The notes under the pieces were generated by a model that worked only from the letters and a program-made list of their open reading frames with translations, was not told the DNA's origin and searched no databases. A stretch of 64,000 nt of DNA from Solidesulfovibrio aerotolerans (GTDB lineage Bacteria > Desulfobacterota > Desulfovibrionia > Desulfovibrionales > Desulfovibrionaceae): NCBI RefSeq assembly GCF_009856865.1, contig NZ_WVUD01000001.1:310001-374000 (forward strand), read 5' to 3'. Below are positions 31,654 to 51,808 of this stretch, piece by piece. A program made the position numbers and the translations under genes. Position 1 is the stretch's first letter; every line of letters begins with the position of its first letter.

Positions 31654-34600
31654 CTAACCTACGGCCGTTTTAGTGCTGCCACCATGCTGCGTGATGCGAG
31701 GACGGCACTTGATCTTTACCGCACCCCGGGTGAAGGAGTCGTCCGAGGCCTTACTCGACCACATATAGGCTTCGCCGGTTCCGAGATGGTTCATCTTGTC
31801 GGAGGTCAGGTCGCTAAGGGCGGCATTTGCCTTCTGGATGTGTTTCAACCATGCGGGCGAGTTGAATTTATGCATGATGATCTGAGAAGACAGCTCGATC
31901 AGTGAGATCGGGACCGATGGCGGGTCCTGAGAGGCGACCATGATGCTGGTCCCCTTGTGCCGCATCTCACGTACGACCTCTACCAGGCCGGAAACCAAGT
32001 CATCGTTCTCAATGTACTTGTGGGCCTCATCGAAAACCACCAGCTTGTTAAAAGCGATACCCTGATAGGTAGCTTCCGAGAAAATCTGCAGCATCACCAC
32101 AAACAGACCGAGGGCCTCGTCCTTTTCAATGTATTCATCTCGCAGATCCACGATGATCAAACGGCCTGGGCGAATCAGATCCTGGAGACGCTGGTTATCA
32201 TCGATATATTCGCTGGAGAACAGTAGGCGCGTCTGGGCCAGCTCTTTCAGGTGATCGGACAGGCCAGAGTTATCGATGCCTGCTCGCAGGGCGTCCAAGG
32301 TCAGGTTCTCCCGCAGTCCCCTCATGATAAGATTGATTTGCCGCATATACATGCTCTGGCTGCCAATCGCTCCCATCAGGAATTTCCAGTGCGCCGCCTT
32401 GAGTTCGGAGGCAGAAAAAGCAATAGGCTTAACCTCGAGATCCGGGAACTCAGCCCGGCGATCATCAACCTTGTTGGCTGGGGTAAGAATCAGGACATCC
32501 TTCAGGGATTCCGGGGTGGCCTTGTAACGCTCACGAAGGATGCGGATCTCTTCATCCACCGAGTTGGCATTGATCATCGAGGTAAACTCCGGCGCATAAT
32601 CCTGCGTCGGGCTGTAATGGAAAATGACCGTAGCGAGCGGGCTTGGCAGCACATTGATGTGTTGAAGCGGCATGGAGGCCATCTCAATGACGGTTCCAAG
32701 GGTGTAGCTCTTGCCGCCGCCTTGAACCCCAAAGAGACTGATTGTGTGGGTATGGTTGAGGTCCAGGGCTATCTTTCTGCCGGAAACTTCTCCGAGCAAA
32801 CCGTACTGGGGTGAGTCGCCATTAACGCCCAGCATGATGTCATAGCTGACTTCGGCTTGAGGCGCGGGTATCGGATGCTCCGGCTCTTCATGCTTGGGTT
32901 GAACAGGTTCTTCCGGTTCAACCGCAACGGCGGCGGGCTGTTTGTCTTCTTTTTTTTGTTCGGGCGCGATGGTGGTAGATCGGGGTGCGTGCTCGACAGA
33001 TTTCGCCTGTTCTTCCTTTTCCTCTTGGGCAGGTGCGGATGTTTCCTCTGCGACAGGAGATATTGGCTGGTTGATTGGAGCCTCCGACTCTTCGTCCCAG
33101 AGCTCATCCACCGTCCAGGACGTTGACCGGGCTCTCTTGGGTGCGATGAAAGCGGCTGTCTCGAGCTTCGGCACGTTCGGAATAAACTGCTCGCTCAGGA
33201 GAGGGACGGTCGGCTCCTCCTCAATCTCGACGGACACAGGTCTGCGGCAGTTCTCCAGCAAGGCGTGAATAAGATCCTTGCCGATGCGGTGGAATTCGAT
33301 GCCCACCTCGTTGTCAGGGACTTCGGTACCTGTCTTGTCAAAGTCGAAGATCAGTGCGCACCGTCTGAATTGAAGCGAGTAGCCCTGTTCGATGGATTCA
33401 ACTAGCCCTCGCGCTTCAAGCGCGGCTGTCACATCAAATATCCCGTAACGCAGGGAGCGTTCCAGATAGAATCGAAGGATCTGAGACAACTCCCGGCTCT
33501 TGAGCAACCTATCCGGCCGGTCCGGTTTTTTCAGGGCCGGGTCAAAGTGGCGCTGGAGGATGCGTTCACTCTGATTGATTTGGGCGGAGATCCGCTCCTT
33601 CAGTTGGTTAAAGGCCGCAAAATCGCCGACCTGTGAATAACACTTCACCTCGACCAGGTTGCAAGTGATCGTCCTGGTGTTCAAATCCAAATCAAACAAA
33701 CCCAAGTCGGTGCGTTGCAGGCTGATGGCATCGTTGACGTCGTCTGATTCTCCGCTTGAGCGGTAGAGGTCCGTGTGTGCGTCCAACGGCACAATGACCT
33801 GATTGCTCAAAGCGCCCTGATATTCGAGATAGAGCCGCGCCAGGGCCAGACCAAGAGCTTCTGCCTGCTGCGTGCGTGCGGAAATCAGTTTCAGGGCGAG
33901 CTGGCCGGAAAGTGACCGCAGATTTGCCAGAATCTGAACTGACTGCTCGCCGTCGGCGGACAAGCCGTGCTCAAGCAGTACCGGCTTCAGCATGGCCTCT
34001 AGTTCATTGTTCGAGCGCGAGGAGATGATCAGGTTGTGTGTCGCCTGGGAGCTGGCTCCCGGCACATAGTCAATCAGATAGTCCGGTCTATTCTTCCGGC
34101 CACCATGGTCGAAAAACTCAATCCCCATATTTCGGTCGATGGTGAACACCCAATCACTGACCTGGTGAACCTCGTAGATCAGCTCTCGTTGGGCCACGTT
34201 GAGGCCAAGGGTCACGACGGGTACGGCCTTAAAACTGCCACCAGAAGCAGCAACCGCTGAGGTCGCAAAACAGAGGTGACGGCTCAAAGACGACAGTAAA
34301 TCAAAACACGCGGCTTGGTTGTCTGCGCCGAGGGAGCGCCCGACAATCGGTCGCTTATTCCAGAAGGTCCCCGAATCGTCATCAACGAATTCTGTGTCGA
34401 AGTCCTGTATCAACCCATGCAGTGGCGTCACACCCATCGTTTTCTCGGCGATGGAAAGCTCCTCGGCGGGAAAAACATCCAGAAGAACACTGATGTGTGT
34501 CGGAAACTCCTTAGGGTTTGCATGGAAATCATTCAGCGCGTGCTTGGCCAAGTTGAGCTTGGAGAACAGATAGCTGCCGGTTGACGTCGAAAACGCGTCA

Positions 34601-37110
34601 GCGCCCTCGTTTACCGTCGCTCCTGGACAGACCATAGATTCAAGCGCCTCACCCAAAACAGGCGAGTCGGGATCGGAGGTAAAGAGCCGGATGTCATAGC
34701 GCAAATCGGAATGCTCACGCTTCTGCTGGAGCGATATCAGGGCCTCCGCTATCACCGAACCGGCCCCGGGATTGAAGATGTTAAGAGATAGCTCCCGCAC
34801 ATACGGATGCTGGGAGAGGTAGCGCTCGATTTTGTCCGCAATGACCTTTCCGGAAATATTGGTCCCCGCCGCAGAGGGTTCTGCCAAGCCGAGGGCCGAA
34901 CAGATCTCCGCCATCAGGCCACGGGAATTTTCTTCGGTTGTCGAGGCGTAGAGCGCCCAAAACGCATTCAGGTTGTCCACCGGAGTGAAGATGCGGCCAT
35001 CCTCAACGGGAATACCAACCGGATAGGCCGAGGGCACAAGACCATCCAACAGCGCGGAACGGACGTGAGGAATGTGATCTTTCCCGCCTGACTTGATCTT
35101 CTTGATCCAATCCTTGCCCAGCGTGACCCAACTGCTCAGCCACAAGGCGCGGAGCGGATGGGTTGGGGAGACCAAAACAGCCTCGCGATGCCTTCCACGG
35201 AAATCAGTCAAGATGACATGAATGGAATCAACTGCCAGCACGTTTCTGAGCGCTTGCAGGTGTTGCTGGCGCTCGGCACCAGAAGTCGTCTCGGCCTGAC
35301 GGATGAGACTCCTGATCAGGTCAAGGTAGCTTTCAGCATACGCGAGGCATTCTTTTTCCGAATCTCGGAACGAAAGCCCCTGCATGATCAGCTCGGCAGT
35401 GTCTTTGCGCACCGCTGAAAACAATTCTTCGCGGGCAGCCAGGAAGGAGGCCATCGCGGCGGAAGATGGCAGCGTGAGTCCTACCTCGGAGGGCGGCTCG
35501 GCGGTATCCAGATTGATCTGCATTCGCCAGCCCGACGGGTGCTTGGGCTCCGCCAAGATGCGCTGCTCGATGGTTTTGAGCATACGCGAAAGCGGGATCT
35601 GAACAGCGCCCTCGCGACCGAATTTTACGTGCAGGGTTTCCTGACGGGAGGTCTTCTTGGAACGACCGCCCTCGGCCCAGGCGACACCACTGATGGCGAT
35701 ATCATCAGGGTCGCGCTCATCGCCCAGGGCAGTCAGTTGCAGCCGAAAACGTGCATGCTCCAGGCTCTGCTCAATGGGTATGGCGCGTTGCGGCGGTTCT
35801 TCCTCGATGTTGCCACCGGGCAGAACATAAAAGGGTTCGCTCTCGAAAGAGCGTTTAGCGCCCTCGGAGGCGGAATCCGCTTCCAGCGGAATTGGGTCGC
35901 CATCGGCCGTCCAAGGCATTACACGGATGAAATGCCATCCTTCCTCGAATTCGATTTGATTGAGTTTGGCTAGATTGGTCGTGCATTGCAGGCGGTTTGG
36001 CGTCCAGGCTTTGACCTTTTTGGATTTTCCTACCGGGCCGTCGTTCTGCGAAATAATTTGAACCGTAAAATGGTCAAGCCCGCTGACCTTGCCGGGGTGA
36101 GGGTTAACCTCGAACACCACGTTCATTTTACGGCGGTCATTCGGGACCAGAACCTGTTGCCCGATGAGGCCAGAGAATTGGTCGTCGGTCTCATCCTCCG
36201 CAATAACCGGCAAGTCGGTCTCCAGCACCGTCAGAAGAACCTTATCCAGCGAAAGCTCTGCCTGGAACGTCCATTTGTCGAAAGAAATGCTCCACCAGCT
36301 CTTGTCTGTCGCGATGGGCGGCGTCCAGGATTCTGGCTCTTGGACATCGTATTTTTCAAAGTAGGTGGACAGGCGCGACTCCAATACCTTGTCGCTGAGT
36401 CCCAGATCGGCGATACGGCCACGAACCGACTTGTGCGAGGTCATCAGACTGCGGACGCTGCCGAGGTTACGGCGAATCTTGCCATTGACAATGCCGGGGT
36501 CGGCAAAAAACTTGAAGTCAGGAATCAACATCAATTCATACAGACTAGCTCCGAGGGTTTCTCCATCAATCCCGTTTTCGAGCGCGGTGAGCAAGTACCG
36601 CACGCGAGAAACATCGTCGGCAAACAGCCACTCCTCCTCGGTAAGAATGCCCAAGAGATCGCGGACATGGCCGACCAGCGTTGCCGGGAGCCGATCAAGC
36701 AGCGAGTCGTTCAAATCCTCGTAGATGCCGGTGAAAGCCAGCTCCTCGAAGGTTGCCACGCCAAAAGAGTCCTCGGCACTGGTACGGAGCGAGGTCGGTA
36801 TGAAGACCAGCAAAGGCTGGCGCAGTTCGCCGTTCGCGTCAGGGTTACGCAGCTCCACCAGCTTGGTGGAGGTCACCCGGAAAGGCATGCCTTCTTGGTC
36901 ATGGCCGCCGAGGATAAAGATGTTTCCGGCGGGCCGGGTTCGCCGAAGTTCCTTGCAGACCGATTCCATGACATCGTCATCAAGATCGGTGACCCGCATG
37001 CAGTGGCCTGGTCCACGATCTCCCAGGATCGCTTCGATACGAGGACAGAGCAGACCAGCGACCGCCGCGTTCAATTTATCCTGGGAAAGCTTGCTGAACG
37101 CGTTACTCAT
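31654..37110 (-). CDS. Giant nuclease/HerA-type ATPase, last gene of MADS-like operon (MAD8-like)
   Basis: 1818 residues. The N-terminal 1100 residues have no domain I can name. Around 1138-1155, LGLFDLDLNTRT...LVEVKCYS gives the D...ExK arrangement of PD-(D/E)xK nucleases. A Pro/Glu-rich linker of about 100 residues (near 1320-1420) leads to a HerA/FtsK-like ATPase: Walker A LFGVQGGGKSY near 1460, Walker B LVVFDEAHKY near 1690, SIMVASQDP sensor. Size and layout recall DptH of phosphorothioate restriction and the ATP-binding MAD8 of MADS. Probably the DNA-translocating and degrading effector (inference). Start overlaps the previous stop (ATGA). Confidence 0.75.
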   Translation of the reverse strand: MSNAFSKLSQDKLNAAVAGLLCPRIEAILGDRGPGHCMRVTDLDDDVMESVCKELRRTRPAGNIFILGGHDQEGMPFRVTSTKLVELRNPDANGELRQPLLVFIPTSLRTSAEDSFGVATFEELAFTGIYEDLNDSLLDRLPATLVGHVRDLLGILTEEEWLFADDVSRVRYLLTALENGIDGETLGASLYELMLIPDFKFFADPGIVNGKIRRNLGSVRSLMTSHKSVRGRIADLGLSDKVLESRLSTYFEKYDVQEPESWTPPIATDKSWWSISFDKWTFQAELSLDKVLLTVLETDLPVIAEDETDDQFSGLIGQQVLVPNDRRKMNVVFEVNPHPGKVSGLDHFTVQIISQNDGPVGKSKKVKAWTPNRLQCTTNLAKLNQIEFEEGWHFIRVMPWTADGDPIPLEADSASEGAKRSFESEPFYVLPGGNIEEEPPQRAIPIEQSLEHARFRLQLTALGDERDPDDIAISGVAWAEGGRSKKTSRQETLHVKFGREGAVQIPLSRMLKTIEQRILAEPKHPSGWRMQINLDTAEPPSEVGLTLPSSAAMASFLAAREELFSAVRKDTAELIMQGLSFRDSEKECLAYAESYLDLIRSLIRQAETTSGAERQQHLQALRNVLAVDSIHVILTDFRGRHREAVLVSPTHPLRALWLSSWVTLGKDWIKKIKSGGKDHIPHVRSALLDGLVPSAYPVGIPVEDGRIFTPVDNLNAFWALYASTTEENSRGLMAEICSALGLAEPSAAGTNISGKVIADKIERYLSQHPYVRELSLNIFNPGAGSVIAEALISLQQKREHSDLRYDIRLFTSDPDSPVLGEALESMVCPGATVNEGADAFSTSTGSYLFSKLNLAKHALNDFHANPKEFPTHISVLLDVFPAEELSIAEKTMGVTPLHGLIQDFDTEFVDDDSGTFWNKRPIVGRSLGADNQAACFDLLSSLSRHLCFATSAVAASGGSFKAVPVVTLGLNVAQRELIYEVHQVSDWVFTIDRNMGIEFFDHGGRKNRPDYLIDYVPGASSQATHNLIISSRSNNELEAMLKPVLLEHGLSADGEQSVQILANLRSLSGQLALKLISARTQQAEALGLALARLYLEYQGALSNQVIVPLDAHTDLYRSSGESDDVNDAISLQRTDLGLFDLDLNTRTITCNLVEVKCYSQVGDFAAFNQLKERISAQINQSERILQRHFDPALKKPDRPDRLLKSRELSQILRFYLERSLRYGIFDVTAALEARGLVESIEQGYSLQFRRCALIFDFDKTGTEVPDNEVGIEFHRIGKDLIHALLENCRRPVSVEIEEEPTVPLLSEQFIPNVPKLETAAFIAPKRARSTSWTVDELWDEESEAPINQPISPVAEETSAPAQEEKEEQAKSVEHAPRSTTIAPEQKKEDKQPAAVAVEPEEPVQPKHEEPEHPIPAPQAEVSYDIMLGVNGDSPQYGLLGEVSGRKIALDLNHTHTISLFGVQGGGKSYTLGTVIEMASMPLQHINVLPSPLATVIFHYSPTQDYAPEFTSMINANSVDEEIRILRERYKATPESLKDVLILTPANKVDDRRAEFPDLEVKPIAFSASELKAAHWKFLMGAIGSQSMYMRQINLIMRGLRENLTLDALRAGIDNSGLSDHLKELAQTRLLFSSEYIDDNQRLQDLIRPGRLIIVDLRDEYIEKDEALGLFVVMLQIFSEATYQGIAFNKLVVFDEAHKYIENDDLVSGLVEVVREMRHKGTSIMVASQDPPSVPISLIELSSQIIMHKFNSPAWLKHIQKANAALSDLTSDKMNHLGTGEAYMWSSKASDDSFTRGAVKIKCRPRITQHGGSTKTAVG

Positions 37111-38789
37111 GCGTGCCTCTCGTGCTTATCAGTTCCGTCATTCTTCTCAATGGCATAGCGGGGCGATACCTTCTGGGTCACGTAGGCATCCGACAGGTCC
37201 TCGTAGAACCCGATTTCACGCAGGCGGCGCTTAAAGGCTTCAAGGTTGAGGCGCAGGGCGCGTCTGTCCAGGATGCTGCTGTTAGCCTGGTTCCCTTCCG
37301 GCAGCCGATCGATATGAAGGCTGTAACGGTTTCTCAAAAAGGCCAGCAATTCCTCAATGCGAACCTCGCGGGTCACAAAACGCCCGCCGTCCTGGGTGAG
37401 CACGGCAATCTGAAGGAGCACTTCGAGCAGCTTGCTCCCCAGCACAAATCGCCGAGGACTACCCTTGGTACGGGATTGAGCCAGCAGGCCGTTTTCTTTG
37501 TTCTTCAGCAGCAGAGAGTCCAGACACTCAGTGATGTATTGGCGGTGATACTTGCCGCGATACGCCATCAGGATTTCGATGAAAGATTCGAACTCGCCAA
37601 GGCCCATGCCGGTGACTTCCCGGATTTCCGGATCGACGTCCTCGTTTCTGGAGGTCGATTCCTCAATCAGGCTCGCCAAGCGGAATTTGAAGTAGGCTTG
37701 ACGCTCGGCGTCGTGTTCGGGCTTCAGCAGGGATACCAGATCGCCTACGGTGAACACGCCGCCCCCAGGGGGAGCCAGCTTGCCCGTTTTTTTGCTCAGG
37801 TATTCCGCCATCTCATCGAGTTTTTTGACGACGAAATTGGCCTGCACAAAGGCCGGTATCTGACGATAGAGCCGGTCAGTGGACTTGCGAGCCAACTCGG
37901 CCATGTGCGGATTGTTGACGTCACCCATGTCCACGACCAACGCCACGCGGTAAGGGCAGCCTTCCAGCGCATTGTCGAGGCCCGGGGTGATTGGGCATTC
38001 TTTGGCGGTACAGAAATCGTTGCCGGAGCGCTGTTTCACCAGCTTGGGCAGCATCTGCAGTTGTTTGAGCTGGTAAAGAGCCAGATGGAATGCCATAAGG
38101 GTCTTGAGGTAATCCACCAGCACCGAACGCGGGATGTAGGGCTCATAGGCCAATAGCCGCAGAATATCGTCGGCCATAATATCGGCCTGGCCGATACACA
38201 GCGGCTGGAAACGCGAGGGCTCCTTGGAGTCCTTCATGTCCTGGGTAACTTGATGATCCAGACGCAGGATAGCTTGCGTCTCCACATCCACGGATGCGTT
38301 GGGATCGTAGCGGTCCGTCACCAAGTCGATTCCCGGGAAGAAGAAGCGCTTCAAGGCATCCCGCGCAGCTTGGCCCTTGCCTTTGCGGGCATAGAAAAGC
38401 ATCCAGTAGATCTGCTCGGCAGCGCCGTAATCACGGGTATGTTTGGCGTTGCGGAATTTATAAGTGTTGCCATGCAGCGGCCTCGGTGCGGCTACGGCCT
38501 GATTGGCTTTGCCTCGATTAACCACATCCATCAGATCGGTTTCGACCCAGCGGTGTACCACCTGCGGAAAACGATCAAAGCCCGCAAACCATTCGGGATG
38601 CTCGAGGAAGTCCTCCATGAACTCTTCAACGGTCAGATCGCCGCCACGAGGCGGGCGTCGGCTGGCATAGCCATCGTATTTCAGCCGGGGAAAGAGCATA
38701 GTCAGCACACGATCCATTTCGATGTGCTTGAAATCGATGTAGGTGGTCTTGGGAGTGCGGAACTCCTTGTCTCTGCCTTTGATGCTCAT
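37107..38789 (-). CDS. Conserved unknown of MADS-like operon (MAD7-like by position)
   Basis: 560 residues, mostly helical, no membrane segment. Visible features are a possible metal site FCTAKECPITPGLDNALEGCPYRVAL near 260-285 and a charged C-terminal half with winged-helix-like stretches (REVRIEELLAFLRNRYSLHI). Not assigned to a known family. Overlaps both neighbours by 4 nt (ATGA at each end), so it is stoichiometrically coupled to the kinase and the big ATPase. By gene order it corresponds to the unknown protein between kinase and ATPase in MADS; this is from memory, not a search. Confidence 0.7.
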   Translation of the reverse strand: MSIKGRDKEFRTPKTTYIDFKHIEMDRVLTMLFPRLKYDGYASRRPPRGGDLTVEEFMEDFLEHPEWFAGFDRFPQVVHRWVETDLMDVVNRGKANQAVAAPRPLHGNTYKFRNAKHTRDYGAAEQIYWMLFYARKGKGQAARDALKRFFFPGIDLVTDRYDPNASVDVETQAILRLDHQVTQDMKDSKEPSRFQPLCIGQADIMADDILRLLAYEPYIPRSVLVDYLKTLMAFHLALYQLKQLQMLPKLVKQRSGNDFCTAKECPITPGLDNALEGCPYRVALVVDMGDVNNPHMAELARKSTDRLYRQIPAFVQANFVVKKLDEMAEYLSKKTGKLAPPGGGVFTVGDLVSLLKPEHDAERQAYFKFRLASLIEESTSRNEDVDPEIREVTGMGLGEFESFIEILMAYRGKYHRQYITECLDSLLLKNKENGLLAQSRTKGSPRRFVLGSKLLEVLLQIAVLTQDGGRFVTREVRIEELLAFLRNRYSLHIDRLPEGNQANSSILDRRALRLNLEAFKRRLREIGFYEDLSDAYVTQKVSPRYAIEKNDGTDKHERHA

Positions 38790-41700: not shown

Positions 41701-42928
41701 GGTCGACGCTTTCAAAGGGCAGCTCGCCGGTCAGCAGTTCGTAAAAGATCAGCCCGACGGCATAGAGGTCGGAGGCGATGCTGGCCTGGGTCGGGTCCTT
41801 GAAGCACTCCGGAGCCTGGTAGGCGGCTTCCAGATCATCCGCCACCTGATCGGCGATGGTGGAGGTGCGGTTCTTGCCCACCCGAGCGAAATCGAAACCC
41901 GTCACCCGGGCTTGGCCGCCCTTGGTTACCAGAATGGCATCCGGGGTGAGATTGCGGTGGATCACCTCATGCCGGTGCGCATGATCCAGAGCCGACAGCA
42001 CATCGCGCATCACCTGGAGCTTCTGGTCAAATGTCAGCGCCAGGGAGGCCTTGTTGATGTGCAGGCGCAGGGCTTGGCCGGGCAGGTCCTCAGTGACCAG
42101 CACCACCTTATCTTCGTCATCGGAGACGAACAGATCCTTCACCGCCAGCACATTGGCGTGGGTCGGCATGTGCGCCACGGCGCGATAAGCGTTGCTGATC
42201 TTCTTGAACTCTTCCTTGCGGGCGGCTTCGTCCTGGTAAGGGTCGGCCTGATAGACCCGCAGGCGGGCGTTGCCGCCCCTCTTGCCCAACAGGTTGTGCT
42301 TGGCGCGGTATTCGGTGTAGCGGTCGGAGCCGCCGAGTTTCTCCTCCACCTGCCAGTCGCGGAACACCAGTGCCGCGCTCTTGGGCTTGGCGTTGCCGGT
42401 GATCGCCTTGGCGATCTGGGAGTGGAAGCGGGTGATGTTATCCAGCCGGTTGTCCGGGATACGGCTTTGGTCGCGGAAGTATTTCAGGCAATGTTTGAAG
42501 TCGGTCACATCCGGGCTGTCGATGCCCGCCTGGTCGAACACGGCGGCGTCATCGGCAGTCAGTAGCACGGCGGCATGCACATGGGCCTTGCGCAGCTCGA
42601 TCAGACCGGTGTTGCTCTCCCGGATGATGGTGGCCATGGTCTTGGCGTGGCTGCGCAGCTTGGCCAGCGGCGAGAAAAACGGCTGCCGCCCCTCGGGGTA
42701 CCACTTGGAGCCATACACATCGATGTTGCCCCGCGTCCCTTTGACATCCACCAGGTACACCGCGTGAGGCGCGAGGATGGCGATGTCGATTTCGAACACC
42801 TCCTCACCCTGGCGCATCTCGAAGTTGTGGAAGATCAGCCAGCCATCAGGAAGATGATCCCGGAGAAAGCCGATGGCTTGGCGTTCAGAGTCGTTTACGG
42901 GCTGGCCGATGGGTATGACCTTCGCCAT
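38786..42928 (-). CDS. NERD-pseudokinase-kinase-NTPase fusion (MAD6/PglW-like)
   Basis: 1380 residues. Domain order: NERD nuclease-like domain (14-130; EIDIAIL...LVDVKG); a kinase-like domain at 190-405 whose catalytic loop reads HRNLTPD (Asp replaced by Asn 326) and whose VAIK lysine position seems lost, hence a likely pseudokinase; a second kinase at 502-700 with GSGGFG (509-514), Lys 531, HQDVKPSN (Asp 625) and DFN (642), which looks active; a P-loop NTPase with GNAGDGKT at 844-851; and a long C-terminal part containing CxxC-type cysteines (ACEKCDLKGKC). Resembles PglW of BREX-2 and the protein kinase of MADS. Probably senses infection and signals by phosphorylation (inference). Confidence 0.85.
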   Translation of the reverse strand: MAKVIPIGQPVNDSERQAIGFLRDHLPDGWLIFHNFEMRQGEEVFEIDIAILAPHAVYLVDVKGTRGNIDVYGSKWYPEGRQPFFSPLAKLRSHAKTMATIIRESNTGLIELRKAHVHAAVLLTADDAAVFDQAGIDSPDVTDFKHCLKYFRDQSRIPDNRLDNITRFHSQIAKAITGNAKPKSAALVFRDWQVEEKLGGSDRYTEYRAKHNLLGKRGGNARLRVYQADPYQDEAARKEEFKKISNAYRAVAHMPTHANVLAVKDLFVSDDEDKVVLVTEDLPGQALRLHINKASLALTFDQKLQVMRDVLSALDHAHRHEVIHRNLTPDAILVTKGGQARVTGFDFARVGKNRTSTIADQVADDLEAAYQAPECFKDPTQASIASDLYAVGLIFYELLTGELPFESVDQMMEADGRFPMKPSEHKPDLPKGIDEWLQKFCEFDPEERHTSAAIARKALGDLILPEAKNDSAPDASGPAVVVPQLPDNLMDLPQDFILADRFRIQKKLGSGGFGVAYKVFDSLGDVVRVIKLVTKDRRSVYERLRREYKTLTNLPDHPHVVKVIWADRMADAKQTPYIVFEYVEGLDVSDLIDAEALSLDDAVRIVREAADGLAHLHEHGVYHQDVKPSNLLWTDKGVRIIDFNVAVSENDEVQGGGGTRRYLPPDYNYNSEPDASDWMDRDLYALGVSFYECLTGKYPFDDPTPPIKTQPKDPKQFKGCADLSSSLVNVLVKMIAPERKDRFASVDEFLTAMAEVKRLRSVLTTGEIGAGPKVVSKLGFEPTKPNTNPFVTHLLTLYSQSQVSNAGTRGLDEVGKATYVPTYLDEKLKPALLKGEFRLVIISGNAGDGKTAFIQQFETVAESKGAQMQRGANGAVFQLKGHTYQSNYDGSQDEGDERNDAVLQRFFAPFAGKDASGWTENQTRLIAINEGRLVDFFLEHEEEFPLLAKQIQQGLAGAAPEGGIAVINLNLRSVVAEPVEGQPSILERLIARMTQQEYWQACEKCDLKGKCFAYHNARTFQDPVAGPKVIERLKMLYTITHLRGRLHITMRDLRSSLAFMLVSTQDCDGIHQLYQNGGEAAQNRILDGFYFNSWLGGSEGSNDRLIALLREIDVAEVSNPDLDRELGFLNPKTKTMSRFSFAERAGYDNELVEALFGSLPRDYSSKNRGRLIAKHRNYLSHMRRRHFFERRDIGWKEMLPYGSIDPFVDAIEQPGAKSADEVTAILRAINRGEGLSDPARLGNQLALRVRQVDKGTIRSYRLFDGDHFTLRTEQETAAHPFLECLSQALELLYYSGDGHKASLRINLDIYEMLMRLNNGYRPSIEEQEGFYLSLAVFKNVLSAAPYQEVLLTESGFEFFQIRRDDKGILHLGKVSRRTDA

Positions 42929-44334
42929 TAGCGACCTCCCTCCTCGATAGCGCGTTCGACGAGGGCAACGGCCTGGTCTTCAAGTTCGAGTGCGTGGTCC
43001 CGCAGGTATCCGGCTCGGTCTACCATCGAAGCAATTTCTTGCTCTTTTTCATCATCAAGGCGGGGAATAGGCATATTCGCCATAAGCACCGGGTGTTGAT
43101 ATTGCTGTTTGCTACCAGTGCTCATTGAGCGGTTCATTCTAAAAGCAAATCGAGACCGAAGAAATGCAAATAGATAACCTGAAGGGATTGTGCCTTCTCT
43201 TGGAATGCATCTATAAAAATCGCCCGAATATGCGTACTTTGAAGTTCTGGGTGTCACCAAAGCGGCTCGGCAGTAGAGTTCGGACTCACCAAGGGTCCCG
43301 TGGCAAGGAATTACCGTTGTACCCGCAGGTACCTGAAGGCCAAGCCCTTGAATAGATTTTTTTGAGATCCATCGACCTTCAGGTCGCAAATGAAATGCAT
43401 CTCTTTGTCCAACTAGCATTACGCCGTGCTCTGGATCAGCGTCTATCCGCTTGAATACTATGTGACCCTCAAAGTTAGACCTATCAACTAGGTCTCCGAG
43501 CAAGCCGTGCCTAATGCTAGACACAGCCTGCCAAAGCCCTTTGGATCTTGGGTCATAGTTCAAAGCTCTCAGACTGAAGGCATCGAAACTCGATTCACTC
43601 CAGCCTTGTCTTTTCTCATCGCTAAGATACTCATGATTTTGTGATTCATTGAGGCCAGCGTTAGCAAATAAACTATTTGTTGCTGACGCCATTAGCGAGG
43701 AAGACTCAGAAAGCTCATCTGCAGCCTGCTGAATCAAATCATGCACTTGTTCCTCGATTTCTTTCAGTCTTGGCACTGGCAAGTCAGCTATGTGATGGGG
43801 TTCAATGTGCTGAATGACTGCGCCGTAGGTTCCAGATGCTATAAGTGGCACACCGAAACGACTTGCAAGATAAGCATGAAGGTACCCCGGCAAAATGGCG
43901 TCTGGATTGGCAACGACCTTCATGATGTCTTGGTTGGACCAAGCTCCCGCCATCGACTTTCGCGAGTAAGCCATGCGTCCAATGCTTCCGGAGCATGTGA
44001 TTAAAGTCATGCCTTCTTTGATTTCCAGATAGCGCAATTTGCTTGAGAGCGCGTCGGCTTTCCGAAGTAAGGGTAGAGTGCTGAGATCGCTATGCAGCAT
44101 TGATGATGTTGTTAAAAAAGGCACACCGAATTCAGGATCGGTGACGTAGTTCCTTACAAACTGAGGGCCGTTGTATATGCCGCCATCATGCCCGGCAGTA
44201 AGTTTGTGCATAGGCATGGTTTTTAGTTTGCTTAACAGTTCCCGCGCCTCAATAGCGCCGGACATATATGGACCGCAGTCAAGACGTCGACCGTTGTGAT
44301 CAAGCCAGGAGCTGGGAACGTGTTTGATTTTCAT
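42928..44334 (-). CDS. Type I specificity subunit HsdS-like protein (MAD5-like)
   Basis: 468 residues, the usual size of a full HsdS with two target-recognition domains. TRD-type anchors: VPFLTTSSMLHSDLS, TLITCSGSIGRMAYSR, IQHIEPHHIADLPVPRLKEIEEQVHDLI (first conserved spacer) and, repeated in the second half, TTVIPCHGTLGE, YQHPVLMANMPIPRLDDEKEQEIASMV. It follows the two methyltransferases with a 4-nt overlap and should direct them to a bipartite recognition sequence, so that self DNA is marked. Base composition is slightly lower in GC than that of its neighbours, consistent with TRD shuffling. Confidence 0.87.
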   Translation of the reverse strand: MKIKHVPSSWLDHNGRRLDCGPYMSGAIEARELLSKLKTMPMHKLTAGHDGGIYNGPQFVRNYVTDPEFGVPFLTTSSMLHSDLSTLPLLRKADALSSKLRYLEIKEGMTLITCSGSIGRMAYSRKSMAGAWSNQDIMKVVANPDAILPGYLHAYLASRFGVPLIASGTYGAVIQHIEPHHIADLPVPRLKEIEEQVHDLIQQAADELSESSSLMASATNSLFANAGLNESQNHEYLSDEKRQGWSESSFDAFSLRALNYDPRSKGLWQAVSSIRHGLLGDLVDRSNFEGHIVFKRIDADPEHGVMLVGQRDAFHLRPEGRWISKKSIQGLGLQVPAGTTVIPCHGTLGESELYCRAALVTPRTSKYAYSGDFYRCIPREGTIPSGYLFAFLRSRFAFRMNRSMSTGSKQQYQHPVLMANMPIPRLDDEKEQEIASMVDRAGYLRDHALELEDQAVALVERAIEEGGR

Positions 44335-46349
44335 ATGGCCACCTCACTGTCTCCCTTGAACTGGCTGAACTTTTCTGACACAAGCGGAAGTTCATCATCG
44401 ATGCGCCTAGTCCTGCGAATAACACGCCTTACGTGGACCTCACCACCTTCACGGACTCGTTCAATAACCTCGTCGCTAAATACCAACTCTTCCCCATCCG
44501 GAGCCCTTTGAAAAAGCGGATTACCTTTTCGATCCATTCCAGCTCTATCAACCAAGGCCATGAACACCTTGTACTCAGGGTGCCCGGCCTGGATCAGGTC
44601 TTCATGTGACCGACGACGGAGTATAAGCAAAGAGCACATGGCCGGTGTTAATCCAAATTCCTTGACGGTGGAGATGAAGGGTTCGACGGGAAAATCCACA
44701 CTGGCCTCTATCTGGCAGTTTCGAAGTATCCACCAGCGAACATGCTCATCGCCGGGGTTTCCCAGTAGGCCATCAGGAAGCAGGATTCCGACGCGACCGG
44801 TGCCTGGCTTCACCCACTGAAGGGCGCGCTCCAGAAAGAGGACTTCGGGCGGGACGCCACCAGAGCTGAGGTTCCCTGTGTTTCTAAAACCACCTTCATC
44901 ATCGCGCTCCCACGCATGTCCCAAGTCGTACGCGCTCAGGATGGAGGCGTCAGTGATCTTATCTTGACTAGAGAACCAGGGGTTCAGCAGAACAACATCC
45001 ATGCTGCCCAGCGGCAAGGCCGGGCGGGCGGCTTCGATGCCATCCAGATCGCCGTCCGGGAAGGTACGGGCATCAATGCGGTACACTCGACCGGGGTTGC
45101 CTGTGGTGAACAGAAGATTCATGCGACTGGCCACTGCCAGGAAGGGATCGATGTCGCAGCCCAGGGCATTGCTGGCCGCCCAGGCGGCGGTTTCGTTTTG
45201 CGCCTGGCGGATCTGTTCGTTGGTGGCCTCTTCAGGCGTGGTGCCCATGGCCGCCAGTTTCTTTTTGAAGATGTGCGCGGCGGTCATGGCCAGGAAAGTG
45301 CCGGTGCCGCTGGAGCAGTCCATGATGCGTTCGCCGGGTTGCGGGTCGAGCATCTCCACCGCCATTTCGGCCACGTTGAGCGGCGTGGGGTAGCGGCCCT
45401 CGCGGCCGTCCATGACGCTGCGGGCGACCGCACGGAAGGCCCCAGTGCGGTAGCGGGGCTGGGTTTCACTCAGAGAGTAACGAGCCAGCTCCATGACCAC
45501 GCGGGCGGTCTCGTGAGGTTCCAGCGTCAGATCCCAGCCACGGGTCAATAGGTTCGGCTGCCAGGCCTTGGCGGCGGCAATGGATTCGTTGATGCGCTGG
45601 GCAATGGCCTGTTGACCCGCCTCGGTGAAAGGCTCGTCGCCCCTGATCCAAAATCTGCGTTCGCCGGTGGGCAGGGTCTCGTCGTGGATCTTGGCCAGCA
45701 CCAGCACGGCCAACTGCTTGAAGGAATCCTTGTGATCGAGCCCCAGGTTGCGGTTCAGGTATTGGCGGCAGCGCAACATGGCGTCTTCCAGGTCCTCCGC
45801 TTCTGCGCTGACCTGAATGACACCACCGGTGCGGTCGAGATCGGTGGTGCGTTCGCCAGGAACCGGCCAAACACCCAGCGGTTTCGCTCGGACCTCGAAG
45901 CGAGTGCGCTCGACTTGGAACAGGAACTCTTCCTGGCCGTTGGTCCACATGCCCAGCGTCGCGTCGGGGATCAGCTCCAGCAGTTCCTTGAGCTCGCGCA
46001 GGTCGGCATCGGCCTCGGCAATGGAACGGAGCTTGTCGCGCTTCTTCTGATTCTTGCAGACGATGATCCGCTGCAGGTTGTCGTTTGTATGCTCGGCATC
46101 GGGACGGAAAATCGCGACGTCGATGCGCTTCCGCCCCTGGCGGGGGATCTGGGGGTTGTAGTTGACCTCCAGGTCGTTCCGGTCAAAGCCGTAGCTCTCG
46201 ATGAGCTGGCGCAGAACCTTCTGCACCAGCAGCTTCTTGGCCGAGGCGCTCTCTTTGTTGCCGGTCAGGATGTCGATGAAAAAGTTATCCGGGCCGCTCT
46301 CTTCGGCAGCATCCTCCGGGGCTTCAATGATGTCGTCTTGATCGCTCAT
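44331..46349 (-). CDS. Second, divergent N6-adenine methyltransferase-like protein
   Basis: 672 residues. N-terminal 130 residues resemble the type I HsdR N-terminal (HSDR_N-like) domain, with the nuclease strand altered (RIIVCKNQ). The methyltransferase core has motif I MDCSSGTGTFLAM instead of DPACGTGGF, and motif IV LLNPWFSS, i.e. NPWF in place of (D/N)PP(F/Y). These changes suggest altered or lost catalysis. It is a paralogue of the following upstream gene by layout and overlaps it by 4 nt. It may form a heteromeric methylase with it. As I recall MADS, this position holds other genes, so this may define a variant. Confidence 0.82.
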   Translation of the reverse strand: MSDQDDIIEAPEDAAEESGPDNFFIDILTGNKESASAKKLLVQKVLRQLIESYGFDRNDLEVNYNPQIPRQGRKRIDVAIFRPDAEHTNDNLQRIIVCKNQKKRDKLRSIAEADADLRELKELLELIPDATLGMWTNGQEEFLFQVERTRFEVRAKPLGVWPVPGERTTDLDRTGGVIQVSAEAEDLEDAMLRCRQYLNRNLGLDHKDSFKQLAVLVLAKIHDETLPTGERRFWIRGDEPFTEAGQQAIAQRINESIAAAKAWQPNLLTRGWDLTLEPHETARVVMELARYSLSETQPRYRTGAFRAVARSVMDGREGRYPTPLNVAEMAVEMLDPQPGERIMDCSSGTGTFLAMTAAHIFKKKLAAMGTTPEEATNEQIRQAQNETAAWAASNALGCDIDPFLAVASRMNLLFTTGNPGRVYRIDARTFPDGDLDGIEAARPALPLGSMDVVLLNPWFSSQDKITDASILSAYDLGHAWERDDEGGFRNTGNLSSGGVPPEVLFLERALQWVKPGTGRVGILLPDGLLGNPGDEHVRWWILRNCQIEASVDFPVEPFISTVKEFGLTPAMCSLLILRRRSHEDLIQAGHPEYKVFMALVDRAGMDRKGNPLFQRAPDGEELVFSDEVIERVREGGEVHVRRVIRRTRRIDDELPLVSEKFSQFKGDSEVAI

Positions 46350-48349
46350 CCGTTCTGCTCCTTGAGAAATTCGCGGTACTTCTCAGCGATGACCGGCAGA
46401 TCGTTGTCCTCGATCTTTTCACTGCGAGTCAGGGTCCGTTCCACAAAGCGCCCGCCGATGCGGATGTGCTCGATGTGCTGCTTGGGCTCGACAATTTCTT
46501 CGCCGTCCGGGGTGCGCTTGTAGAGCTTGTTGCCACGGCGGTCGAAGCCAACCTTGTCGGCCACGGCCATGAAAACCGGGTATCCATCGATGCCACCCAG
46601 TGCCTCGGCGCGTTTTTCCTCTTCACCCTTGCGGCGCAGGAACAGCAGACTGGTGAGGATGTTGACGTTGGCCTCGGCGATGAAGGCCTCCACCGGCAGG
46701 TCGACGGAGGCGAGCACCTGGGTTTCACGCATGATCCACCAGCGGATATATTCCGCCGCCGGGTTGCCGAGAACGCCGTCGGGCAGGACGATGCCCATGC
46801 GGCCGGTGCCCGGTTTGAGCCACTTGATGCAGCGCTCGATAAAGAGAATCTCAGGCGCGACGCTCCCCTTGGGGGTGCCAGTGTTGCGGAAGCCGCCTTC
46901 ACCGTCCGGTTCCCAGGCGTGCGCCAGCTCGTATTGCTCCAGGATGTGTTTGTCGGTGATCGGGATGTCGGAGCCGAACGGAGGATTGGTGGCGATGATA
47001 TCCACCGCCCCCAGCGGGATCTCCTTCTTGGCGGAGGGCAGATCGGCCAGATGTCCCAGCGGAAACTCCAGGGAGTTGATGTTGTAAATGTGCCCCCGAC
47101 CGTCACCCGCCAGCACCATGTTCATCTGGGCGGCACGGATCAGGAACGGGTCAAAGTCGGCTCCGAACACATTGGCAGCGGCATATTCTTTCAGCCGCTC
47201 GTGGACGTTCAGAAACTCGGTGGTGTTTTCGTTCCCGACCTGGGTATTCTGCTCATCACGGAATTTCTTCAGCATGTGTCCCAGGGTGGCGACCAGGAAG
47301 CCGCCGGTCCCACAGGCCGGGTCCAACAGCGTCTCGCTCTCCTTGGGATTGAGCATTTCCACGACCAGCTTCACCACGCCCCGAGGAGTGAAATACTGAC
47401 CACGGTCGCCGCGCAGATTGACGCCCACCAGCTCTTGATAGGCCACGCCCTTGGCATCGACATCCGTGCGGGTGAAATCGTATTTGGCTAATTCAGAAAC
47501 GATAAAGGCCAGCGCCCGGTCGGAGAGGGTGATCTCCTCGTTGCCCCGGAAAATGTTCTTGTACTGCGTTTTGACCTCGGTGAAGAGCTCTTCAATACGG
47601 GCACGGATGGCCTTGCGGCCCTGAGGCTCGAACTGTTCCTTCGGGCCAGCCCAGAACCGGCGTTTCCAGGCCTGGCGCTGCTTGCCGCGCAGATTCTCAT
47701 CGTGCATCTTGCAGAAGATAAGGTAAAGGAACTGCCAGAATGCGGCATCCTTGGGCATACCCTCGTTGCCATGGATGTAGTTGTGGCAGCGGCGGAAGGT
47801 GATCTTGAGCATCTCGTTGTCGGCGATGCGGGTATGGGCATCGGAGATGACCTCCTTGGTGCCGATCGACTCTTCTGCCATCGGCCAGTCGCCGATGGGG
47901 TTGCACTTGGTTTCGAAGCGCTTTTGTTCCTTTTCGACGAAGAAGAACTCCAGGCCGTTGGTCCACAAGCCGTATTGAACCGCGTCGACCTCGCGCATAA
48001 TGGTCTCGATCTCATCGAGGTCCTGGGCGGCCTGCTCAAAATCGCGGATGCGCACGGTATTCTTGCCGACGTTCGGTTCCTGGCGGCAGAGAACGGCTCG
48101 CCCCAGGTTCTCGATGGTATGCACCTTGTCATGGTGGAAGATGGCCACGTCCACTTTCTTGCGGCCGCCAATGGAAAAATCCAGCTCCATGTCTTCCGGC
48201 GAGAATCCGTATTCGTGGATCAAGGCACGAACGACCCGCTGCCGGACCAGCTCCTTCTTCGTTTCCTTGACCTGTTTACCGGAAACGTAGTCGAGCGTGT
48301 ATCCCGCCGGGATGGTGTTCTCAGCCTGCTTGTTCTTCTTTCTGCTCAT
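46346..48349 (-). CDS. N6-adenine DNA methyltransferase (HsdM-like, MAD2-like)
   Basis: 667 residues. Motif I LLDPACGTGGFLVATLGHML and motif IV IIATNPPFGSD are canonical for type I M subunits, so it is likely catalytically active. An N-terminal domain of about 120 residues (YGFSPEDMELDFSIGGRKKVDVAIF) looks like the HSDR_N fold, as in the second methyltransferase. The stop overlaps the next start by 4 nt. Likely role: methylates host DNA for self/non-self discrimination together with the HsdS-like protein. Confidence 0.9.
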   Translation of the reverse strand: MSRKKNKQAENTIPAGYTLDYVSGKQVKETKKELVRQRVVRALIHEYGFSPEDMELDFSIGGRKKVDVAIFHHDKVHTIENLGRAVLCRQEPNVGKNTVRIRDFEQAAQDLDEIETIMREVDAVQYGLWTNGLEFFFVEKEQKRFETKCNPIGDWPMAEESIGTKEVISDAHTRIADNEMLKITFRRCHNYIHGNEGMPKDAAFWQFLYLIFCKMHDENLRGKQRQAWKRRFWAGPKEQFEPQGRKAIRARIEELFTEVKTQYKNIFRGNEEITLSDRALAFIVSELAKYDFTRTDVDAKGVAYQELVGVNLRGDRGQYFTPRGVVKLVVEMLNPKESETLLDPACGTGGFLVATLGHMLKKFRDEQNTQVGNENTTEFLNVHERLKEYAAANVFGADFDPFLIRAAQMNMVLAGDGRGHIYNINSLEFPLGHLADLPSAKKEIPLGAVDIIATNPPFGSDIPITDKHILEQYELAHAWEPDGEGGFRNTGTPKGSVAPEILFIERCIKWLKPGTGRMGIVLPDGVLGNPAAEYIRWWIMRETQVLASVDLPVEAFIAEANVNILTSLLFLRRKGEEEKRAEALGGIDGYPVFMAVADKVGFDRRGNKLYKRTPDGEEIVEPKQHIEHIRIGGRFVERTLTRSEKIEDNDLPVIAEKYREFLKEQNG

Positions 48350-48377
48350 ATATAAACTCCGTTCACCGAGGCTGGTA

Positions 48378-48584
48378 TCAATTCTGCTCGTCCTCGCCGA
48401 AATCCTGGGTCGGGTGTTTCTGTTGCTCTATCCATCCGTCGATGTCCTTTCGGGAGAATCGCCACTGGCCTCGGACCTTGAAAGCAGGCAGTTCCCTGGT
48501 CTGAGCCATGGAATAGACCGTCTTCTCGCCGACCTTAAGTAAGGCGGCGACATCCTTTAGTTTCAGAACTTCTTCATTGCTCAT
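48378..48584 (-). CDS. Small helix-turn-helix protein, first gene of MADS-like operon (MAD1-like)
   Basis: 68 residues with excisionase/MerR-like HTH: LKLKDVAALLKVGEKTVYSMAQTRELPAFKVRGQWRFSRKDIDGWIEQQ. This motif occurs in both excisionases and small operon regulators. It is 28 bp upstream of the methyltransferase and is the promoter-proximal gene. The ATG is preceded by GGAGAGGCGTC. Confidence 0.85.
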   Translation of the reverse strand: MSNEEVLKLKDVAALLKVGEKTVYSMAQTRELPAFKVRGQWRFSRKDIDGWIEQQKHPTQDFGEDEQN

Positions 48585-48669
48585 GACGCCTCTCCTGCAG
48601 GGCGGTTGGCCGTCAAGGCACAGTGCCAGAACAGGGGTAAGTTACTTGCTTCTGAGTAAAAACAAATAG

Positions 48670-48698
48670 AATATACCAAACTTTGCCAAAGATTGCCA
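48670..48698 (-). promoter_or_regulatory. Candidate sigma-70 promoter of the defense operon
   Basis: On the minus strand TGGCAA (48698-48693), 17-bp spacer, TATATT (48675-48670). It lies about 85 bp upstream of the HTH gene and back to back with the regulator promoter. Confidence 0.5.
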
Positions 48699-48704
48699 GG
48701 AAAA

Positions 48705-48726
48705 TTTAGTGTTGCAAAACACTAAA
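48705..48726. promoter_or_regulatory. Palindromic operator for the XRE regulator
   Basis: TTTAGTGTT (48705-48713) and AACACTAAA (48718-48726) form a perfect 9-bp inverted repeat around GCAA. It covers the -35 hexamer TTGCAA (48712-48717) of a promoter (CATATT -10 at 48735-48740, 17-bp spacer) for the XRE gene, and abuts the -35 of the divergent defense operon. One bound dimer could control both directions. Confidence 0.65.
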
Positions 48727-48747
48727 CACTGAGGCATATTTGACGCC

Positions 48748-49098
48748 ATGAAACACTTTGGCGAGACCATCCGCGACCTTCGAGTCGCCCAAGACCTCGG
48801 GCTGCGTGAGACGGCGACCAAGGTAGGCATTTCCCCCGCCTATCTGAGCCGCATCGAGCGTGGCAAGGAGCGTCCTCCCAGGCCAGAGGTAATCAAGGAG
48901 CTGGCCAAGGTACTGGCCGCTGATCCCGACGTGCTGTTCCGTTTGTCCTCGTCTACGGACCCGGAAGTTGTCGACTACCTTCATGACCAACCCGAGGTCA
49001 TGAATTTGCTTCGCTACATCAAGGAAACCAGCTTTACCGAGGATGAGATCAAGAGCCTTATCCAGTCAGCCGAAAGCATCAAAGCCAACACTCATTAG
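48748..49098 (+). CDS. XRE-family transcriptional regulator of the defense operon
   Basis: 116 residues, XRE/Cro HTH at 3-65 (GETIRDLRVAQDLGLRETATKVGISPAYLSRIERGKERPP). The C-terminal half (YLHDQPEVMNLLRYIKETSFTEDEIKSLI) is a helical dimerisation region. It is divergent from the seven-gene operon with a shared 160-bp control region that contains a palindrome. The ATG follows the -10 box by 7 bp, so the transcript is probably leaderless or nearly so. Likely autorepressor and repressor of the defense genes. As this count goes, the regulator makes eight genes in the locus. Confidence 0.85.
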   Translation: MKHFGETIRDLRVAQDLGLRETATKVGISPAYLSRIERGKERPPRPEVIKELAKVLAADPDVLFRLSSSTDPEVVDYLHDQPEVMNLLRYIKETSFTEDEIKSLIQSAESIKANTH

Positions 49099-50075: not shown

Positions 50076-51293
50076 TCACGCCTCCAGGAGTTGGGTGATG
50101 GGCGCGCCGATCAAGTAGATCATGGTGATGAAGGTGGTTACGTTCCGATACCCTCTGGCCCTCGAGCGAGCAGCCTGAAAGGGGCCATTGAGCCCTTCCA
50201 GGCGGGCATTGGAGAGCAAGGATTCCCATCTTCGTAGGATCCGAGGCAAATGGTCCTCGAACGTGTTCAGCGCCTTGCGCACCGGCGCGAGCAGAACCGA
50301 GTCCCCGGCAAGTTCGCGAGCGAATTCGTAAACTGCGTCGCCCGCCATCTCGCACCCTGCCTGGTGTCAGCCTTGCGCACCCACCGCAGTAGTTCCTTCA
50401 CCCGAAACGCGGTGGCCGTCGCCAATCCGCGTTCCTCCAACTCCTTGAGGGCCGACCTGCTCCTCGCTGCGCCAAGTCTCCAGGCCCTTGAGAACCGCTC
50501 ACCGGGCAGCCTTGGGAAGTTTGACCTCCCTGGCTTCGAGACGCCGGACCTCGTCGAGGGCTTTGGTGAAAATCCGGACTACATGGAACCAGTCTACGGT
50601 TACCGCGGCATTTTTGAAGGTGCCTCGGCTGCGGCCAGAAAGGCTGGCGACATGTCGCACACCACCTCGACCACGTTCTCCGGATTGCCCTGACGCCCTT
50701 TGAGGTACGCGGCAAAGGTCTTGAGGCATTCCTTGCCCTTGCCTGGAGTCGCGCGTTGACATCACCGGCCGGCTTTCACGGTCCATGTCCACGAAGATGG
50801 TGACGTAATGATGGCCACGCTTGGTTGCCGTTTCGTCGAGGCCGATTCCGCACAGTCGGCTGAGATTAAGCTTGCCCATGGCCTTCAAGACGTAGTGCGT
50901 CACGCCCCGCCATATCCGCTTGTCGGTGACGCCGACGTAACGCGCCACGGCGTTGGCTGATCGGCATCACTCGGGCAAGAAGCATGAACGCTTGCTCGAA
51001 AAGCAGGGTGAACCCGCTGCCAGGCCGAGCCCATGGAACATTGACGCGCTTGAGGCCATGCTCCGGGCATCTGACTCGAGGAACCCTGGCCGTAATCAGG
51101 CAGTGGTGCTGGAATAAGTCAGAGGTGCACGCCAGCTGAATTCCGCGAAGTCATGGGCCTTACTGGGAGCACCGCACCCCGGGCAGGGATAGCGCTCGCC
51201 TCGCGCGGCCTCGACCTCAAGGCGAAGCTCGCTGGGTTTCTTTGAGAGGTCCAGGGACTGGCCTACGACCCGCCAGGGCTCAGTTGAGGCCAA
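50076..51293 (-). pseudogene. ISL3-family transposase remnant, frameshifted
   Basis: Pieces of one transposase read in order on the minus strand in different frames: YPCPGCGAPSKAHDFAEFSWR (N-terminal zinc finger) near 51220-51150, LCGIGLDETATKRGHHYVTIFVDMD (DDE strand) near 50860-50780, TVDWFHVVRIFTKALDEVRR, and SLLSNARLEGLNGPFQAARS plus RARGYRNVTTFITMIYLIGAPI at the C-terminus (near 50200-50090). These are ISL3 signatures. Several frameshifts break the gene, so it is inactive. Terminal inverted repeats were not found with confidence. Confidence 0.8.
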
Positions 51294-51746: not shown

Positions 51747-51808
51747 GAACTTTCTGGTTGCGGGGGTGGGATTTGAACCCACGATCTTCGGGTTATGAGC
51801 CCGATGAG
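51736..51808. repeat. attR: 73-bp direct repeat within tRNA-fMet
   Basis: Identical to 18454-18526. Here it continues into the D-arm and 5' acceptor strand of an intact tRNA gene, so integration left the tRNA functional. Confidence 0.93.

Follow-up and report, generated by a model that had tools for sequence, protein, structure and literature searches.

What does a second homolog of a DNA methyltransferase do in a defense operon that already contains one? The question is raised by a locus of Solidesulfovibrio aerotolerans, located in a stretch of 64,000 nucleotides (nt) of contig NZ_WVUD01000001.1 (positions 310,001 to 374,000; this whole stretch is called the window, and all coordinates refer to it). 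Seven tightly packed open reading frames (ORFs) on the minus strand, from 31654 to 48584, form an operon of the methylation-associated defense system (MADS). The place that MAD3 and MAD4 occupy in the reference type of this system is taken here by a diverged paralog of the MAD2 methyltransferase, Mad2b. The preferred answer, which appears rather likely, is that Mad2b is a non-catalytic accessory that regulates or guards the methylase-specificity complex and is encoded in a slot, between mad2 and mad5, whose content is exchangeable.

The operon

The first gene, mad1 (48378 to 48584, 68 amino acids (aa)), encodes a small excisionase-type helix-turn-helix (HTH) protein (NCBIfam model MADS1, 89 bits against a cut-off of 80; PADLOC mad1, E value 1.8e-5). 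It is followed by mad2a (46346 to 48349, 667 aa), an N6-adenine DNA methyltransferase with an HSDR_N-like N-terminus (MADS2, 1022 bits, cut-off 720; Pfam N6_Mtase), by its diverged paralog mad2b (44331 to 46349, 672 aa), which passes the same model with 802 bits and is predicted to be non-catalytic, and by mad5 (42928 to 44334, 468 aa), a DNA-specificity (S) subunit with two target-recognition halves (MADS5, 567 bits, cut-off 400; PADLOC mad5). The last three genes are mad6 (38786 to 42928, 1380 aa), which combines NERD nuclease-like, pseudokinase and kinase parts with a C-terminal SspF/DndF-like P-loop module (MADS6, 862 bits, cut-off 460), the SspG-like mad7 (37107 to 38789, 560 aa; MADS7, 670 bits, cut-off 410), and mad8 (31654 to 37110, 1818 aa), with a C-terminal HerA-like ATPase (MADS8, 233 bits, cut-off 175; PADLOC mad8, E value 3e-39). 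All seven genes exceed the curated NCBIfam cut-offs for MADS, in the order MAD1, MAD2 (twice), MAD5, MAD6, MAD7, MAD8, and the PADLOC profiles agree (mad1, mad2 for two genes, mad5, mad6, mad7, mad8). N6_Mtase and HSDR_N_2 domains are present in both methyltransferase genes.

From the mad8 end upward, neighboring genes overlap by 4, 4, 1, 4 and 4 nt, and the final gap, between mad2a and mad1, is 28 bp. A gene for an XRE-family regulator with HTH matches (48748 to 49098, plus strand) is divergent from the operon. The original prediction had described this arrangement correctly, and its domain calls (HTH, methyltransferases, specificity subunit, NERD and kinases, HerA-like ATPase) hold. It had also spoken of an eight-gene MADS locus: the assignment to MADS stands, and the number does not, as the count took in the XRE gene, and the MADS models are numbered MAD1 to MAD8 without it, leaving seven mad genes. 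The kinase, the gene of unassigned function and the giant ATPase all match MADS models above the cut-off (MADS6, MADS7 and MADS8), which identifies the second of them as mad7. The NERD domain and the two kinase stretches of Mad6 are as predicted; the NTPase part is seen by Pfam only as a sub-threshold AAA match, C-terminal to the kinases. The backbone order mad2-(slot)-mad5-mad6-mad7-mad8 was recovered in 45 distinct loci, so the arrangement in the window is not due to chance.

The reference type is represented by a Piscinibacter plasmid locus (L002; the compared loci carry L numbers) with all eight positions filled. The third gene encodes an AAA ATPase (547 bits with the MADS3 model, cut-off 420) and the fourth a small unrelated protein (233 bits with MADS4, cut-off 160). 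The window shares MAD1, MAD2, MAD5, MAD6, MAD7 and MAD8 with this type, in the same order. Neither MAD3 nor MAD4 was found between MAD2 and MAD5 of the window; the gene at this position is the MAD2 paralog with an NPWF motif. Since MAD3 and MAD4 of the reference type are an ATPase and an unrelated protein, and neither is a second methyltransferase, the window locus is a variant of MADS and not reference MADS. The proposal that a second methyltransferase-like gene fills the MAD3-MAD4 position, making the locus a subtype, is thus borne out. In the whole genome of the window, the matches of the MAD3 model are confined to weak ATPase ones outside this contig, the best of which scores 53 bits against a cut-off of 420. 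The MAD4 model finds nothing in this genome, but it finds nothing in 14 control genomes either, which makes this weak evidence of absence. The AlphaFold model of Mad4, with a predicted local distance difference test (pLDDT) score of 79, has no PDB match at an E value of 0.001 or better, so Mad4 is not assigned to TOPRIM, a likeness noted by visual inspection alone.

Origin and conservation of Mad2b

Mad2b and Mad2a of the window are 38% identical. Motif IV reads NPWF in all 26 Mad2b sequences (one of which, from L014, is cut near the C-terminus) and NPPF in all 42 Mad2a sequences (two of these were missed by the motif pattern and were checked separately), as well as in five of five outgroup methyltransferases. 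Motif X is GRYPTPL in 26 of 26 Mad2b and GQ[YF]FTP[RK] in 42 of 42 Mad2a (GQYFTPR in the window). In a tree of 73 sequences, the 26 Mad2b proteins form a single clade with an SH-aLRT support of 100 and a stem of 2.79 changes per column. The clade adjoins 40 of the 42 Mad2a, and two Bacteroidota Mad2 and five other methyltransferases lie outside. Long branches meet in this tree and its exact root is unsure; the tree nevertheless identifies Mad2b as a paralog, of single origin, of a Mad2-type enzyme.

The mean column identity within Mad2b is 89% (20 sequences). The ratio of nonsynonymous to synonymous substitution rates (dN/dS) of mad2b lies between 0.057 and 0.162 in nine pairs of loci; mad2a, mad6, mad7 and mad8 give 0.00 to 0.17 in the same pairs. 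These values indicate that Mad2b is under purifying selection, and a protein so conserved, with such a low dN/dS, should be useful to the locus. The changes to NPWF and GRYPTPL suggest that Mad2b is non-catalytic, i.e. that methyl transfer has probably been lost. The second methyltransferase-like gene of the original prediction, with NPWF in every copy, is thus probably not an active methyltransferase.

Residues ~481-560 of Mad2b are 62-65% identical to Mad2a, and other blocks of 40 residues are 20-48% identical. The high identity of this stretch could be due to a shared interface or to gene conversion. Sequence searches against solved structures return remote methyltransferases only, four for Mad2b and 13 for Mad2a (E value 0.01).

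The slot between mad2 and mad5

Fifty distinct loci with mad7 were compared (five duplicates were dropped), and 45 of them are readable between mad2 and mad5. The slot holds mad2b in 24 of the 45 (in L014 an IS3-like element interrupts it close to its end), mad2b together with an ImmA/IrrE-peptidase-like gene, placed before or after it, in two, a mad2b broken into three pieces in one (L029), mad3-mad4 in nine, a diverged pair of ATPases in three, and a Fic gene in two (L043, and L018, where a mad2b remnant is also present). The slot of the remaining four (L003, L004, L017 and L077) is without a recognised gene. The commonest occupant in this window-centered sample is mad2b; because the loci were mostly sampled by similarity to the Mad7 of the window, the proportions are not population frequencies. 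The suspicion that the locus is a variant holds as far as the MAD3-MAD4 position is concerned, and the variant is not an oddity of one strain.

The junction between mad2a and mad5 measures from -4 to 3155 nt and exceeds 150 nt in 43 of the 45 loci. The gaps are never larger than 26 nt between mad5 and mad6 (45 loci), mad6 and mad7 (48 loci) or mad7 and mad8 (49 loci). When the slot content is mapped onto a tree of Mad6, Mad7 and Mad8 combined (45 rows), it has changed at least 11 times. The presence of mad2b has changed eight times, and well-supported branches force at least seven changes.

The borders of the exchange can be located by aligning related loci. The window matches L057, a locus of the same bacterial family, at 82% identity until 10 bp short of the mad2a stop codon; the match resumes within mad5, some 60 bp from its end, and continues at 86% through the end of mad8. 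Between these breakpoints, the only blastn match is a 204-bp stretch of mad2b to mad2a. The alignment of L026, which carries mad2b, with L057, which carries the ATPase pair, also ends 10 bp before the mad2a stop. It resumes 4 bp before mad5, and the identity from mad5 through mad8 is 83%; between the breakpoints there is one match of paralogs, of 257 bp. Scars of mad2b are found in L017 (in an otherwise empty slot, and only 27 residues at 63%), in L018 (after the Fic gene) and in L031 (after mad4). At the level of gene sequence, these comparisons establish the mad2-mad5 junction as an exchangeable slot with sharp breakpoints. A recently named defense system is thus modular at one exact place, and L026 and L057 constitute a natural experiment, in which a similar backbone and specificity gene are combined with different cassettes.

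The two ImmA/IrrE-like genes (L020, 1306-2433, and L041, 3343-4452) belong to one family; one of them precedes mad2b and the other follows it. The L020 gene, which is the one of the two that was scanned, scores 18 bits with Pfam, under the cut-off of 22. Fic genes are located near mad8 in L003 and L004. In L003, a Bacteroides plasmid locus, a PP2C phosphatase gene (22106-22771) directly follows mad8, and it is possible that this phosphatase is a counterpart to the Mad6 kinase.

The specificity subunit

A Mad2b that served as an indispensable, base-specific half of the methylase should be accompanied by target recognition domains (TRDs) of Mad5 that differ from those of other loci. Forty Mad5 sequences were compared, 26 from mad2b loci (broken ones included) and 14 from others; three from Bacteroidota were left out. 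The median identity of TRD1 is 51.7% within mad2b loci versus 53.1% between the groups, and that of TRD2 is 21.7% versus 23.9%. Between L057, which lacks mad2b, and L026, which has it, Mad5 is 92% identical in TRD2 and 77% in TRD1. Mad5 of L031, a mad3-mad4 locus, matches two mad2b loci by halves, with 87% identity to L008 in TRD1 and 87% to L016 in TRD2. High similarity of TRDs is customarily read as a sign of the same target. Since Mad2b is present beside some S subunits and absent beside close relatives of theirs, it is probably an accessory, and Mad2a alone probably suffices with Mad5.

The specificity gene itself is also exchanged. The loci of Atlantibacter (L013) and Escherichia coli (L044) share 97% identity over the stretch that begins at the end of mad5 and includes mad8, and 89% from before mad1 through mad2b; most of mad5 is unaligned. 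This pattern suggests that recombination within the locus swaps S genes too.

Mad6, Mad7 and Mad8

The restriction side of the locus resembles the SspFGH and DndFGH complexes. Pfam finds NERD and Pkinase in Mad6, where the pseudokinase (HRN/GFD) and the kinase (HQD/DFN) can be told apart by eye. Residues 801-1380 match SspF (E value 4e-28) and, weakly, DndF (3e-7), and the Walker A motif of the P-loop, GNAGDGKT, is present in 48 of 48 Mad6 sequences checked. Mad7 matches the SspG profile of PADLOC (7e-9), and Mad8 matches HerA and, weakly, DndH (5e-6). The matches to Ssp and Dnd proteins are thus significant but partial. Sequence searches against solved structures give four HerA-like chains for Mad8 at an E value of 0.1 and none for Mad7 at an E value of 1.

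The C-terminus of Mad6, Mad7 and Mad8 resemble SspFGH and DndFGH, but these are partners of phosphorothioation systems, whereas Mad6 to Mad8 are paired with a methylase and an S subunit. The NCBIfam search of the seven operon genes plus the XRE gene matched no DndABCDE or SspABCD modification gene, and the operon itself revealed no HsdR. According to PMC8092258, SspFGH and DndFGH have no significant identity to one another, so Mad6 to Mad8 would be only distant kin of a loosely defined group. The same paper describes SspFGH as damaging unmodified DNA and as toxic when a cell lacks the mark. The resemblance would tie the restriction side of MADS to a machinery whose action on unmodified DNA has already been studied. 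A front consisting of NERD with inactive and active kinases has been described for DndF proteins (PMC10853773, in part), and PglW has NERD, inactive kinase and active kinase in the same order (PMC12839542, in part). Mad6 shares this order with PglW of BREX type 2/Pgl, but a check against these families, proposed with the original prediction, gave 225.6 bits for Mad6 with PglW, far under the cut-off of 990. PglX models match mad2a only below the cut-off, and PglZ models match none of the operon genes at an E value of 0.01.

Possible role of Mad2b

By analogy with the families involved, the locus might work as follows. Mad2a together with Mad5 would methylate adenine in a bipartite target and thus mark the host genome. 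Mad6, Mad7 and Mad8 would form a complex similar to SspFGH and DndFGH and attack DNA that lacks the mark; the NERD-kinase front of Mad6 would serve as a sensor or a backup effector. Mad2b would have arisen once from a Mad2-type enzyme, would probably have lost methyl transfer, and would act as a slot accessory, interchangeable there with mad3-mad4, Fic or nothing. As an inactive partner or a decoy, it would most likely control or guard the complex of methylase and specificity subunit, such that engagement by a phage factor alters the defense output. Such a job is suggested by the full methyltransferase length that Mad2b has kept and by a slot shared with AAA-ATPase pairs and Fic. The guard function in particular is suggested by the company in the slot: the ATPase Mad3, which in L002 has an AriA-like PADLOC match (E value 2e-25, ranked behind the mad3 and HEC-01A models), and a SoFic-like Fic protein.

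Guard genes are present within other restriction loci, PrrC in EcoprrI and PARIS in BREX loci. Similar to the genes of the MADS slot, they are accessory modules among modification genes; the likeness is one of position. In a more far-reaching version, the slot would be dedicated to interchangeable guard modules (ATPase pair, Fic, pseudo-methyltransferase), and Mad2b would be an inactive decoy that is engaged by phage anti-restriction proteins and thereby triggers or unleashes the defense. This version is tentative and rather unlikely.

Several observations weigh against the reading of Mad2b as a non-catalytic accessory. Mad2b retains the D and GTG of motif I and the N, P and F of motif IV, so a residual or altered activity is possible. 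A clustering of the paralog-specific changes in the catalytic motifs was considered and rejected: the paralogs differ in 10 of 24 columns in these motifs and in 64 of 177 other conserved columns (Fisher p 0.65), so the change does not appear to be aimed at the motifs. The AlphaFold model of Mad2b is poor (mean pLDDT 47) and gives no usable view of the pocket. Outside the TRDs, Mad5 sequences resemble one another somewhat more closely among mad2b loci than across the two groups (medians of 62.5% versus 50.0% at the N-terminus, and 43.9 versus 37.5% and 40.8 versus 35.4% in the two conserved regions), which could reflect either kinship or contact with Mad2b. For most of the 14 S subunits of the group lacking mad2b, no mad2b locus offers a near-identical partner across both halves. 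Sampling relied mainly on the similarity of Mad7 to that of the window, which favors the slot type of the window, and many of the loci come from metagenome bins. Finally, the loss of catalysis, the formation of complexes and the guard or regulatory role are inferred.

The retained motif I core and N-P-x-F, together with the likeness of Mad5 outside the TRDs, would also suit a heterotrimeric M1M2S methylase composed of Mad2a, Mad2b and Mad5, in which Mad2b is active but modifies a different base, for instance cytosine at N4 on one of the strands. PacII provides the precedent. It has two unlike M subunits beside one S subunit, as the window does, and its M1, with NPPF, makes N6-methyladenine (m6A), and its M2, with NPPY, makes N4-methylcytosine (m4C) (excerpt of PMC9613975). 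Mad2b, however, has NPWF in every one of the 26 copies instead of NPPY, has GRYPTPL as the second pocket motif, and is exchangeable, having been repeatedly lost or replaced while Mad2a and Mad5 stay. The similar S subunits found without Mad2b (both halves in L057 and L026, and by halves in L031) would be unexpected for a base-specific half enzyme, and their sharing across slot types makes an m6A/m4C enzyme of the M1M2S type less likely. Such an enzyme is considered improbable; m4C formation by Mad2b is set aside as a rival reading on account of these S subunits and of the NPPY in PacII M2 (PMC9613975).

It is similarly doubtful that Mad2b and Mad5 form a non-methylating target finder, which would bring Mad6, Mad7 and Mad8 to unmethylated sites, with Mad2a and Mad5 placing the mark. 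The full M-subunit length of Mad2b and the stretch at residues 481-560 that is so similar to Mad2a are consistent with this arrangement, but loci without Mad2b still have mad6, mad7 and mad8, and the finder would have to be dispensable there. As to a decaying, functionless duplicate, the altered catalytic motifs, the broken copies in L029 and L014 and the scars in three loci point in its direction; the dN/dS values, the column identity and the invariance of NPWF described above argue so strongly against decay that this explanation is extremely improbable.

Occurrence and annotation

The mad2b-type variant of MADS is present in several phyla. The mad1-mad2a-mad2b part of the window has matches in 10 of the 5426 complete E. 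coli genomes searched (megablast, 68% of the query, 84-85% identity), and mad7 of one E. coli locus matches the same 10 genomes of the 5426. The three E. coli regions that were opened all contain the mad2b form, one beside tRNA-Phe and two beside tRNA-Leu. At an E value of 0.001, the Mad7 model matches 6 of 395, 5 of 369, 4 of 244 and 8 of 349 whole genomes in four sets (the center genome included), of which 4, 1, 2 and 3, respectively, are above the family cut-off; most of the weaker matches are partial and cover mainly the C-terminal part of the model. Among 50,697 phage records, 10 match Mad2b, with a best coverage of 90% at 29% identity. One locus among viral contigs (L082) was found with Mad7, and it carries mad2b.

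The MADS2 model is passed by both methyltransferases of the window and by five other Mad2b proteins scanned, so that annotation names both paralogs MAD2, as RefSeq does in 9 of 10 E. coli rows. The label 'DNA methyltransferase MAD2' on both copies hides the difference of Mad2b: a common form of MADS carries a strongly conserved methyltransferase homolog that is probably not a methyltransferase. MADS itself is already known; what is new is this conserved homolog, probably a pseudo-methyltransferase, together with the precisely delimited site of exchange. The abstract of Maestri et al. 2024 on MADS is said to mention MADS-like systems, so part of the present findings may be in print. No description of MADS with two methyltransferase genes or with an exchangeable slot was met in the literature searched, to which the defining MADS paper does not belong, and none is given in the excerpts of PMC12904381, PMC11842806, PMC13321033, PMC12839542, PMC12322248 and PMC13293514.

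The regulator and the host island

Homologs of the XRE gene are found upstream of mad1/mad2a in several relatives. Between xre and mad1 of the window lies a perfect palindrome, TTAGTGTT-GCAA-AACACTAA (48706 to 48725), which is likely the operator of the XRE protein. With up to two mismatches allowed, it has one match in the window versus a mean of 0 in 100 shuffles, and its exact core occurs in 4 of 97 loci (L011, L028, L056 and L052, which is that of the window).

The MADS genes are cargo of a 33.3-kb island (18454-51808) that is bounded by perfect direct repeats of 73 nt, the tRNA-Met attachment-site copies at 18454 to 18526 and 51736 to 51808. The island contains a tyrosine recombinase as its integrase (18711 to 20012, plus strand; Pfam Phage_integrase, E value 6e-20), an HTH protein, a DUF3987 protein, a separate Fic-domain gene (23591-25078), a homolog of type IV coupling proteins (25271 to 27163, minus strand; TrwB_AAD_bind, 3e-9), and a NikA-like mobilization protein with a MobA/VirD2-type relaxase (28824 to 30999, plus strand; NikA-like, 6e-12; Relaxase, 5e-17). 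The locus had been placed in a mobilizable element, in agreement with this integrated island and its mobilization genes. A fragment of an ISL3-type transposase (50499-50948) is located near the island end.

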